A DNA stretch of 64,000 nt. It comes from Natronorubrum daqingense. GTDB taxonomy: Archaea > Halobacteriota > Halobacteria > Halobacteriales > Natrialbaceae. The DNA lies in contig NZ_CP019327.1 in NCBI RefSeq assembly GCF_001971705.1, positions 1,922,001 to 1,986,000 on the forward strand, given 5' to 3'. Numbering within the stretch: the first letter of the stretch is position 1; each line of letters begins with the position of its first letter. Shown in pieces: positions 60,816 to 64,000 of the stretch. The notes under the pieces were generated by a model. That model did no database searches, was not told where the DNA came from, and saw nothing but the letters and a program-made list of their open reading frames with translations. Position numbers and translations under genes: made by a program.

Positions 60816-60899
60816 CCGTTCTCGGCGCATCCCGATACGTTTTCTTTCCAAATTATCCAGATGAACTGAGAGGTGGGAGGACAACTAAAGGAGGCATAT

Positions 60900-60920
60900 A
60901 AGTGTACTACTGGTATACTT
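60900..60920. promoter_or_regulatory. Imperfect palindrome upstream of RHH gene
   Basis: AAGTGTAC, 5 nt, GTATACTT: seven of eight pairs match. It is about 30-50 nt upstream of a TATA-like ACATTTATGG (60948-60957) that fits the RHH start. It may be an operator for the ribbon-helix-helix protein. From 60816 to 60900 nothing else is seen. Confidence 0.45.
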
Positions 60921-60982
60921 TTGGTGAACTGGAATGACGCCTCGACAGTACATTTATGGAATGGTCCTCCGACCTCACACTC

Positions 60983-61105
60983 ATGCCGACGATTAAAGTC
61001 CAAGAGTGGACGAAAGAACGTCTGGAAGAAATCAAAGACGAAGAAGACCACACGTCACTTGATTCAGTCATCAAGTCACTACTAAAAGAGCAAGAAAACC
61101 GATGA
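60983..61105 (+). CDS. 40-residue ribbon-helix-helix protein
   Basis: From ATG 60983, 26-28 nt after a TATA-like box. The sequence is a minimal RHH unit: strand TIKVQEWTKERLEEIK, then a loop and the second helix SLDSVIKSLLKEQ. Such proteins are DNA-binding dimers, often antitoxins or autoregulators. Its stop overlaps the start of the helicase gene (ATGA), so the two are coupled. It probably binds the palindrome at 60900-60920 and controls the pair. Confidence 0.75.
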   Translation: MPTIKVQEWTKERLEEIKDEEDHTSLDSVIKSLLKEQENR

Positions 61106-64000
61106 GGGATATTGGAAACCGGGTTATCGATAACAATGCTGGCTTGTTGACGGATGAGAAGGAGGGCAGTGTCCAAGATGTCTTTGAACACTACCTGAAG
61201 AAGGCAATTGAGGAAGACCGTGCGAACAGCTTCCGAATGGATATTGGAACGGGATTCCTCTTTTTCTCCGGATTTGAAACGATCTCAGACACCTTTCAGG
61301 AATTAATTGAGACGGACACCATTAGTCAAATCGAAGATCCAGACTGGGGGACTGAGGCACCCATCAGGGTTGTAATGGGGCCAGAAACCTCCAATCGAAC
61401 GAAATCAATCTTGCTCTCTCTTGTCACCGATCAGGTCATCGAGTACGATGACGAAGCAATCGAAGTTCTTCGACAGCTCATCAAACGGGACTTGGTTGAT
61501 TTCCGGGTTATCACCGACCGTAAGTTCCACCCAAAACTGTACAGCTTTTATCTCCGCTCTGATGTCCCAGATGACATTTGGGCTGGTTCGGCTAACTTCA
61601 GTAAAGGAGGGCTGCAAAATAACATCGAACTCTCGGTTCAAATGCAGACCGGGAATCAGGATCGAGAGCTGTTTCGGGAGTGGTTCGACAAGTTGTGGGA
61701 ATACGGTGAAGAAGATCTTGATGTATTAGAAGTTCTTGAAAACGTTCAACAGAGCGACTACGTATACCAGCCACCGTCGGTCTTCTTTGCCAAGCTCATT
61801 CGTTACCTTGACCGAGACTACTTGTTGGACAGCACCACCTCGACCGATGGATCACCGCTCTTGGAGTATCAAAATTTAACGTACAACATCGTGATGGAGC
61901 GACTCCAGCGTTACGGAGGATATATTCTTTCGAACAGTGTAGGGACTGGCAAGACATACGTCGCTGCGCAAACTGCAGCAACCTATCAGCGCCGATCACC
62001 AGATAAAGAAATCCTGGTTATCGCTCCCTCAAACGTTACCGAAGAGTGGATAGAAGTGTTCGAGGAATTCAACATCGACTCCGAAACAGAATTCCTCTCG
62101 ATGGGGATGTTGCAGAAACAACCACTTGAAGAGGCAACCGAGGGTGATCGCGTCTTTGACTATCGTGAATACACCGACCGGTTCAGTCTGATTATCGTTG
62201 ATGAGGCTCACAACTACCGGAACGACAGTAATCGGCGCAACAACCTGGAAGACATTATCCGCCAGAATAACGATTCTGACGTACTCTTAACGAGTGCTAC
62301 ACCGATCAACATTAGTCCCGAAGACCTATTCTCTTTGATCGACTTATTTTATCGGGCAGGAAGAGTACAACAATTCGAGAAAGCCGGTCTGAAGTCCCAT
62401 TACGAGAGCACCAGACAAGAACTGAAGCAGTTAGACAACTACGACGATCTAAGCAATAGCCTTATTCAGGATATCAAAAAGATCGAGAACGAACTGTCCA
62501 TTAAGATCACATGGCGGATTATTCAAGAGGAATTCAAAGAGGATCTTCGGGAATTAGCGGGTGATGATGTTGAGTACGACGATCCCGAAATCACCGAAGA
62601 AGAGTACGACTACCCCTCCCGGTATCAGAGCGAAGTTTTCGAGGAAATTGTTCCCTTCCTTGATCAACTCAATTACGAACCCTCGAAACTTTGGGACGGT
62701 CAAGGGTATCAGGACTTCGATAACCTAATCTTCCGACATAAGTGGCGGTTATACAAACGGCTGGAAAGTAGCCTCAAAGCATTTCACGACAGTATCGACA
62801 ACCTGCACAAGCGTTTTATTTTGTACTATGAGTCACTCAAGAGAGATATCGCGATCGAGGAAAATGACGTGTCCTCGTTGTCTACCAGTGTTGACCCACA
62901 GGAAGCCGCCAATGCAACTGATTTCGAACGACTGGAAACCGTCGTCGGTACCTACCGGACTCTCGATTCAGACCTTCAGGAGAAGGTACTTACGAACCTC
63001 AAATCGGACATCGATCTGATTGGACAGATGTTAGATCGAATCAGGTCCTCGTTCGGCCAATCCTCGACCGTCCCCTATCCTGGCGACCGGAAGGTTACGC
63101 GACTACGGTCGATCATCGAAGACGAACTGACTAAAGATAAGCCAGTTGTTATATTCTCACAGTACAGTGATACGGTAGAGTACCTGTATCAAAGCCTCTC
63201 TTCAGAATTCGGGGGTGTACGACGTATTCACGGTGGTTTGTCTAAAGACAAAGAAGAGTTCGTATCCGCCTTCAACCGCGGTGAATTTGACGTCATAATA
63301 ACCACAGACATGTTAGCAGAGGGGGTCAACATTCCGCGCGCGGACGTCATCGTAAATTTCGACCTTCCGTACAATCCGATTACGCTAATTCAGCGAACTG
63401 GCCGTGCATTACGCATTACGAACCCGAAAAAGGTCGAGGTCCATAACTTCCGGCCAGCAGATTCCATTGACCGAGAGCTGGAACTTTACGAAAAATTGGA
63501 CGCTCGACTCGACACTATACTGGATATCGTGGGCCTGGACTTCATCGTCTGGTTGATGGATGAGAAGAAGGTCGAGCAATTGCACGAGGACGAACGTGAG
63601 GAGTACGTCGAGAGTTTAGCGGACTACAATGAAACAATAGCCACCTCCGACCCAAGCGAGATCGCTCCGGAGCAAACACCACCGGAGGAGACGCGGACTG
63701 ATCGTATTCTGCGGCGGGCGATTGACACCTATAACCTGACGTCCGACGATGTGACAGCAGTCTCACCATCGATACGACGGCCGATTTATACTGTGTTGAA
63801 GCCCTCCGGTCGCCAAGAGCAAAACACCGCTGATAGCGACGCTGAGGTTCGGGAATCGGTACTGTCTGACTTCGCTATCCTTGGTGAGACTGGGGGTGCC
63901 CCCTCAATTTGGACTCCGTTACACCGGAGTGTAAAAGCCGGACCGAGTGACGAGGAACTTACCGAGAGTGATATGGGTACCATCGAAGAAATCCGAGAGG
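61102..64000 (+). CDS. PLD-like domain fused to SF2 helicase (partial, runs off the edge)
   Basis: At least 966 residues from ATG 61102; no stop before the window ends. The N-terminus (about 60-200) has one PLD-type site: FHPKLYSF with His143 and Lys145, then GSANFSKGG near 162-170. The SF2 helicase has Walker A VGTGKT (281-285), DEAH (367-370), SAT near 398, and motifs V/VI with IHGGLS, TDMLAEGVNIPRADV and QRTGRALR near 764-771. The end is an acidic, mostly helical region. A nuclease-like/PLD domain on a helicase is common in antiviral systems, so it probably detects and processes foreign nucleic acid. Its RHH partner overlaps it by 4 nt. Confidence 0.85.
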   Translation, partial: MRDIGNRVIDNNAGLLTDEKEGSVQDVFEHYLKKAIEEDRANSFRMDIGTGFLFFSGFETISDTFQELIETDTISQIEDPDWGTEAPIRVVMGPETSNRTKSILLSLVTDQVIEYDDEAIEVLRQLIKRDLVDFRVITDRKFHPKLYSFYLRSDVPDDIWAGSANFSKGGLQNNIELSVQMQTGNQDRELFREWFDKLWEYGEEDLDVLEVLENVQQSDYVYQPPSVFFAKLIRYLDRDYLLDSTTSTDGSPLLEYQNLTYNIVMERLQRYGGYILSNSVGTGKTYVAAQTAATYQRRSPDKEILVIAPSNVTEEWIEVFEEFNIDSETEFLSMGMLQKQPLEEATEGDRVFDYREYTDRFSLIIVDEAHNYRNDSNRRNNLEDIIRQNNDSDVLLTSATPINISPEDLFSLIDLFYRAGRVQQFEKAGLKSHYESTRQELKQLDNYDDLSNSLIQDIKKIENELSIKITWRIIQEEFKEDLRELAGDDVEYDDPEITEEEYDYPSRYQSEVFEEIVPFLDQLNYEPSKLWDGQGYQDFDNLIFRHKWRLYKRLESSLKAFHDSIDNLHKRFILYYESLKRDIAIEENDVSSLSTSVDPQEAANATDFERLETVVGTYRTLDSDLQEKVLTNLKSDIDLIGQMLDRIRSSFGQSSTVPYPGDRKVTRLRSIIEDELTKDKPVVIFSQYSDTVEYLYQSLSSEFGGVRRIHGGLSKDKEEFVSAFNRGEFDVIITTDMLAEGVNIPRADVIVNFDLPYNPITLIQRTGRALRITNPKKVEVHNFRPADSIDRELELYEKLDARLDTILDIVGLDFIVWLMDEKKVEQLHEDEREEYVESLADYNETIATSDPSEIAPEQTPPEETRTDRILRRAIDTYNLTSDDVTAVSPSIRRPIYTVLKPSGRQEQNTADSDAEVRESVLSDFAILGETGGAPSIWTPLHRSVKAGPSDEELTESDMGTIEEIRE

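Follow-up and report, generated by a model that had tools for sequence, protein, structure and literature searches.

Related restriction and defence systems

Type III restriction-modification (RM) systems combine Mod, a beta-class N6/N4 methylase, with Res, a PD-(D/E)xK nuclease, and Type ISP and Type IIG RM systems have the nuclease and the methylase in one polypeptide. The effector of the Type-2 BREX-related (BR/Hma) systems is an HKD-DNase fused to a Swi2/Snf2 helicase, and it is paired with an N6 methylase (PMC12839542; PMC7641849). The BR systems also need a DUF499 ATPase and DUF3780 (PMC12839542). PbeABCD, which includes the PLD-helicase PbeA, blocked haloarchaeal virus replication with no detectable DNA cleavage, and solitary pbeAC near methylases were noted in the same study (PMC6459918). 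SauUSI is a single modification-dependent protein with its own TRD and without a methylase (PMC7913695, PMC5737866), and its PLD domains form a dimer interface (PMC7913695). In CglI and NgoAVII, the PLD and the ATPase are located on separate chains and a B3 specificity domain is present (PMC7913695, PMC5737866).

The window, a stretch of 64,000 nucleotides of the haloarchaeal chromosome of Natronorubrum daqingense (genome G000, contig C1:1922001-1986000), includes close to its right end the beginning of a gene for a PLD(HKD)-SF2/SNF2 helicase that is followed by an Eco57I-type N6-adenine methylase gene (Table 1). The HKD and SF2 motifs are intact in one chain and the methylase is adjacent, a combination that in the present analysis was grouped under the name 'two-gene HKD-SF2 helicase + Eco57I methylase systems'. 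The locus is best read as an RM system of a known style, in a minimal and little described two-gene variant. A description of the two-gene form in haloarchaea was not found in the literature searched, the coverage of which was partial.

Like the BR Type-2 systems, the locus has an HKD-Swi2/Snf2 effector plus an N6 methylase, but its four-gene island is without DUF499 or DUF3780. No DUF499 was found in the whole G000 genome by a search whose control matched in Thermotoga, and membership in BR/Hma is ruled out because the genome is without DUF499. The locus shares with PbeABCD a PLD and SF2 helicase effector in haloarchaea, and differs from it in having a methylase gene in place of the phosphorothioation genes. 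No PbeB, PbeC, PbeD or Dnd genes were recognised in the insert, and a whole-genome search for DndE was silent, as were its controls. The SNF2 helicase, the Eco57I-like methylase and the PLD activity recall DISARM (DrmD, E=9e-31; DrmMI, E=3e-23). However, the island is without DrmA, DrmB and a separate DrmC, and the PLD is fused to the helicase. DrmA, DrmB (DUF1998/MZB) and DrmC were all missing from the insert, which rules out DISARM membership, and the only MZB protein of the genome is about 1.08 Mb away. Since the genome is without DUF499 and the island without DISARM genes, the locus is a two-gene relative of the BR/Hma, DISARM and Pbe effectors; it is not a member of the BR/Hma or DISARM systems and probably not of PbeABCD.

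The PLD nuclease and the SF2 ATPase are found in one chain and in this order, as in SauUSI, but here the methylase is a separate gene, and a Pfam search produced no match to an SRA domain. The two-component logic is that of Type III RM systems, and a helicase together with a gamma-type adenine methylase with a TRD is known from Type ISP. Unlike in either of these, the nuclease is a PLD and not a PD-(D/E)xK enzyme, and the genes are separate with the helicase first. Type III is ruled out by the methylase, which is of the Eco57I/gamma type with NPPY, and by the HKD nuclease; Type ISP and Type IIG are ruled out by the location of helicase and methylase on separate genes. Inspection of the methylase alignment by eye showed no E-x-K triad in its conserved N-terminal block.

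The accessory insert and its genes

Locus L002 continues to the right of the window, and window coordinates are obtained by adding 58000 to those of L002. Near 60.9 kb the GC content drops from about 0.6 to 0.46-0.49; it is 0.46-0.59 in the module and about 0.63 past it. The insert is about 7.8 kb long, has a low GC content and includes four genes. The module was found in two of ten congeners, G000 and its sister species G352, where it lies between a subtilase gene and RIO2, and the other eight are without it. The flanking RIO2-LplA region is present in all ten. In G270, which lacks the module, subtilase and RIO2 are about 1 kb apart. The chromosomal genes past P0004 are RIO2, LplA and GDH, and no tRNA was found beside the insert in the 40 kb scanned. 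At its ends, the G352 insert has about 410 extra bases on the left (L038:7567-8017) and 340 on the right (about L038:13296-13647).

Table 1. Features of the accessory insert in window coordinates, with L002 coordinates in parentheses.
Feature	Position	Strand	Basis or remark
Left boundary zone of accessory insert	60841..60879	.	G000/G352 alignment break points, GC drop, module absent from 8 congeners
Imperfect palindrome AAGTGTAC-TACTG-GTATACTT, one mismatch	60900..60920	.	Sole operator candidate; not above chance
TATA-like hexamer TTTATG	60953..60958	+	25-30 nt upstream of the RHH ATG; identical in G352
RHH-like ORF, 40 aa, MPTIKVQEWTKERLEEIKDEEDHTSLDSVIKSLLKEQENR	60983..61105	+	Sub-threshold Pfam matches; alternative in-frame ATG at 60956
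PLD(HKD)-SF2/SNF2 helicase, 1086 aa	61102-64362 (L002:3102-6362)	+	966 aa visible in the window, to 64000
Eco57I-type N6-adenine methylase, 1205 aa	64355-67972 (L002:6355-9972)	+	PF07669, E=6e-25; 8-nt overlap with the helicase
P0004, 215-aa ORF, convergent on the methylase	67988-68635 (L002:9988-10635)	-	Beyond the window
Right boundary of accessory insert	near 68,713		G000/G352 alignment breaks

Close relatives of the module were found on a Natronococcus occultus plasmid and in Haloarchaeobius, Halorientalis persicus and Haloferax marinum, and more distant ones on a Haladaptatus plasmid, adjoining an integrase, and on the Methanothermococcus plasmid pMETOK01. The insert is mobile and is also found on plasmids of these three genera, Natronococcus, Haladaptatus and Methanothermococcus. 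Plasmid pMETOK01 (L103), from the deep-sea vent methanogen Methanothermococcus okinawensis, has 15 kb that consist mostly of the Eco57I methylase, the HKD-helicase, an integrase and toxin-antitoxin genes.

The original prediction had placed the start of an accessory segment near 60.9 kb, which agrees with the GC drop and with the absence of the segment from eight congeners. The PLD-SF2 helicase that it had recognised in the ORF running out of the window does have PLD and SF2 domains, and the remainder of the system does lie beyond position 64000, where the end of the helicase, the methylase that had been suggested as a possible partner, and P0004 are all located. Its description of an unrecognised defence arrangement held in part: the PLD-helicase is of a defence type, but its gene is paired with that of a methylase, and the two are best read as a little-described variant of a known-style RM system.

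Pairing of the helicase with the methylase

The N-terminal PLD/HKD domain of the helicase was detected by the Pfam models RE_NgoFVII (E=9.5e-5) and PLDc_2 (E=5.6e-4), and the SF2/SNF2 part consists of ResIII and Helicase_C domains. Across 18 relatives, with identities as low as about 21%, the HKD motif (H143-x-K145, G162-S163-x-N165), Walker A, DEAH and QRxGR do not vary. The best PADLOC profile and best family match of the helicase was C3a139 'HKD+Snf2' (E=1.9e-37), a protein-level candidate model for which a described mechanism was not found in the literature searched; it matches all 18 aligned HKD-helicases. The profiles that followed were DrmD (E=9e-31), PbeA (E=2e-29), HmaA and BrxH. With a dN of 0.008 and a dS of 0.092, the helicase is, on these substitution rates, under purifying selection within the clade. 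Helicase matches at E <= 1e-30 were present in 47 of the 391 haloarchaeal genomes sampled. G000 has a second, more distant HKD-helicase of 1266 aa (L040:7667-11467). At a distance of 3.7 kb from it lies an Eco57I methylase in convergent orientation (L040:15196-18822), and the two genes together span C1 about 1,419,666-1,430,821.

The methylase alignment showed that the motifs DPAxGxGxF and NPPY are kept. Its PADLOC match was DrmMI (E=3e-23), and the solved relatives recovered by profile search were BrxX and other adenine methylases, weakly, at E values of 1e-5 to 1e-2. No virus-borne copies were confirmed. An Eco57I-type methylase lies within about 6 kb of the helicase in 49 of 52 archaeal HKD-helicase loci, which come from haloarchaea and one methanogen; 48 were counted by script, to which the Haladaptatus methylase (NPPH) was added. 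Two of the three loci without a methylase lie on contigs of 7-9 kb. The two genes mostly overlap or are adjacent, and they occur in several independent gene orders, as helicase-methylase, as methylase-helicase and in convergent orientation. The pairing has thus outlasted rearrangement. Within the close clade, all five intact helicases are accompanied by the methylase. In loci L122, L124 and L125 an HKD-helicase stands between two different Eco57I-type methylases, one per side. In another locus, a TATA-binding-protein gene (L043:4103-4651, Pfam-tested) is found just upstream of a methylase-helicase pair, and ORFs that resemble it by look are located at L043:4661-5200, L052:3172-3711 and L077:3076-3612, the last one 3' of the G213 module.

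The methylase occurs without an intact helicase in seven genomes: G352, G337, G164 and four more distant ones. In G352, a 2.55-kb deletion takes away helicase residues 146-998 and the methylase is open; in G337 the helicase is a broken remnant and the methylase is open; and in G164 the methylase is alone. Such asymmetry, with the helicase lost and the methylase kept, would be expected if the methylase protects self. Loci L070-L073 (G150, G378, G386, G370) have solitary methylases that share 46-48% identity with P0002 and are without a related helicase in the neighbourhood; these are possibly domesticated orphans.

A comparison of the Haloarchaeobius and Halorientalis persicus copies bears on specificity. 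The helicases are 98% identical overall and 96-100% identical in every 100-aa window. The methylases are 89-99% identical over residues 1-800 and 20-37% identical over residues 901-1200. The simplest reading is that the C-terminal target-recognition part of the methylase was replaced and that the helicase follows the specificity of the methylase. A diverged methylase C-terminus beside a near-identical helicase thus points to specificity residing in that C-terminus and to a helicase that tolerates a new one.

Small ORFs, proposed mechanism and competing readings

Small RHH regulators are beta-alpha-alpha dimers in which the N-terminal strand binds DNA. The short ORF in front of the helicase matched DUF7557 (E=4.7e-4; 20.0 bits, below the Pfam cut-off of 25) and the VapB-type antitoxin family VAPB_antitox (E=6.4e-3; 17.7 bits, below the cut-off of 27.9). 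Three matches to DUF7557 over the cut-off exist elsewhere in the G000 genome. An AlphaFold (AF2) model of the monomer has two helices and zero strands (pLDDT 77); because the strand is missing from the model, the RHH assignment comes from the sequence. The stop of the ORF and the start of the helicase overlap in ATGA (61102-61105). In each of the six close loci an RHH remnant precedes the helicase, but only G000 and the sister species G352 have an intact frame; these two differ by one nonsynonymous and three synonymous changes. The Haloarchaeobius and Halorientalis versions have the same 4-nt deletion, which puts the sequence past the first strand in another frame, and those of Natronococcus and Haloferax have drifted or eroded, with prolines within helices. 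No RHH was found upstream of the Haladaptatus and Methanothermococcus helicases (43% and 34% identical, respectively). An intact frame in two of six close loci, frameshifts in two and erosion in two indicate that the RHH is not core, and together with the absence from distant members they rule it out as a conserved core gene. It is, as a putative regulator, optional and being lost among relatives, and in this genome it may act as a local repressor.

The palindrome belongs to a class defined by 8-bp arms, up to one mismatch and spacers of 3-8 nt. The window has 404 of these, or 6.3 per kb, and when the intergenic stretch was shuffled, 22% of the resulting sequences contained one. It is kept only in the sister species G352. 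These frequencies rule it out as evidence for an operator and leave the self-regulation proposed in the original prediction without statistical support. The TATA-like hexamer has a spacing that, judging from its position, is compatible with a leaderless haloarchaeal transcript. As for the predicted 40-residue RHH protein, the ORF and its overlap with the next gene were confirmed, and its RHH matches are weak and sub-threshold. The proposed functional unit of operator, RHH and helicase was not supported, since the conserved unit is helicase plus methylase.

We consider it probable that the helicase is the restriction or effector subunit of an ATP-dependent defence system of the restriction-modification type, made up of two genes, in which the methylase marks self. 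That methylation would shield DNA from the effector is supported indirectly by the asymmetric losses and by the replaced specificity region. The methylase would recognise a DNA sequence via its C-terminal specificity region and methylate adenine as the self mark. The PLD-SF2 protein would be recruited to, or activated on, DNA with unmethylated sites, along which it would move, or which it would remodel, with ATP before cutting it or blocking its use. The helicase is probably a dimer with one PLD active site between chains; a dimer is expected because there is one HKD motif per chain, as in SauUSI with its PLD dimer interface. The overlapping helicase and methylase genes are presumably co-translated, and in G000 and G352 the RHH, as first gene, probably reduces the activity of a promoter that lies immediately upstream. 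The gene layout, the intact catalytic motifs, the recurrent pairing, the replaced specificity region and the loss of the helicase beside a surviving methylase are observations; from them we infer the physical partnership of helicase and methylase, the dependence on methylation, the cleavage and the repression by the RHH. Alternatively, the methylase could act independently, with the helicase being a modification-dependent or abortive effector.

DNA cutting by the PLD-helicase is likely, but not certain, since the related PbeABCD blocked virus replication with no cleavage being detected. A Pbe- or BREX-like system that does not cut, and whose helicase arrests the replication of unmodified DNA, is possible but not likely. 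Such a system is suggested by the similarity of the helicase to the PbeA, DrmD and BrxHII models and by the PbeABCD result (PMC6459918), but the strict invariance of the HKD residues in 18 relatives is unexpected for a dead nuclease, and Pbe partners were not recognised in the island. More doubtful is an essential functional unit formed by operator, RHH and helicase, in which the PLD-helicase is under the control of a dedicated RHH repressor. The ATGA overlap, the conservation between G000 and G352 and the matching position of the remnants in four more loci speak for it. Against it stand the frameshifted and eroded versions, the helicases without an RHH upstream, a palindrome not above chance and the 5 nonsynonymous changes per 70 sites in the Haloarchaeobius/Halorientalis remnant (L056/L005), where about 0.6 are expected at the helicase rate. 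It is very unlikely that the module is a decaying mobile-element remnant without function in G000: the insert is of low GC content, occurs in two of ten congeners and is broken in G352, but all three G000 ORFs are open with complete catalytic motifs and the helicase is under purifying selection elsewhere in the clade.

Another reading, which we regard as unlikely, is that of a Type II/IIG-like methylase whose nuclease partner is P0004, which would either be the restriction enzyme or read methylated DNA, with the PLD-helicase a later and dispensable addition. Among 391 haloarchaeal genomes, P0004 was found only beside this methylase (5/5), on which it converges in all five genomes, including in G164, which has no helicase, and in G352, where the helicase is broken, and a remote homologue adjoins a Type III RM system in G250. 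P0004 also matches, weakly, a Type II REase model of PADLOC (E=4e-4), and its best VIA-align neighbours were YTH m6A readers (Z 5.8) and Hjc (Z 5.1), although the pLDDT of the model is 66 and these Z values are below the informative level. A Foldseek search produced zero matches with E <= 0.001. Against this reading, the copies in Haloferax marinum and Halorientalis have the helicase but no P0004, and no canonical PD-(D/E)xK motif was seen in P0004. Nonetheless, P0004 is kept with the methylase where the helicase is gone, so the two-gene account may lack a component of the system. A four-part system can be imagined, improbable as we hold it to be, in which P0004, as a YTH/EVE-like protein or degenerate nuclease, would read the adenine marks of the methylase and license or veto the PLD-helicase, and the RHH would be the archaeal counterpart of the bacterial control (C) proteins, holding back the helicase until the methylation is in place.

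Haloarchaeal genomes have been reported to be rich in 'Type IIG' and orphan methylases (PMC10609329, PMC6471742), and a text search of both reports found helicases unmentioned. The pairing observed here suggests that some of these methylases supply the modification half of an ATP-driven restriction system of two genes with a PLD-helicase effector, and that some of the orphans are leftovers after the loss of the effector. The Halorientalis and Haloarchaeobius pair, with the same helicase and a replaced methylase specificity region, is a ready comparison for what sets specificity, and the G000 and G352 pair, with an intact and a broken helicase, is one for protection by the methylase.
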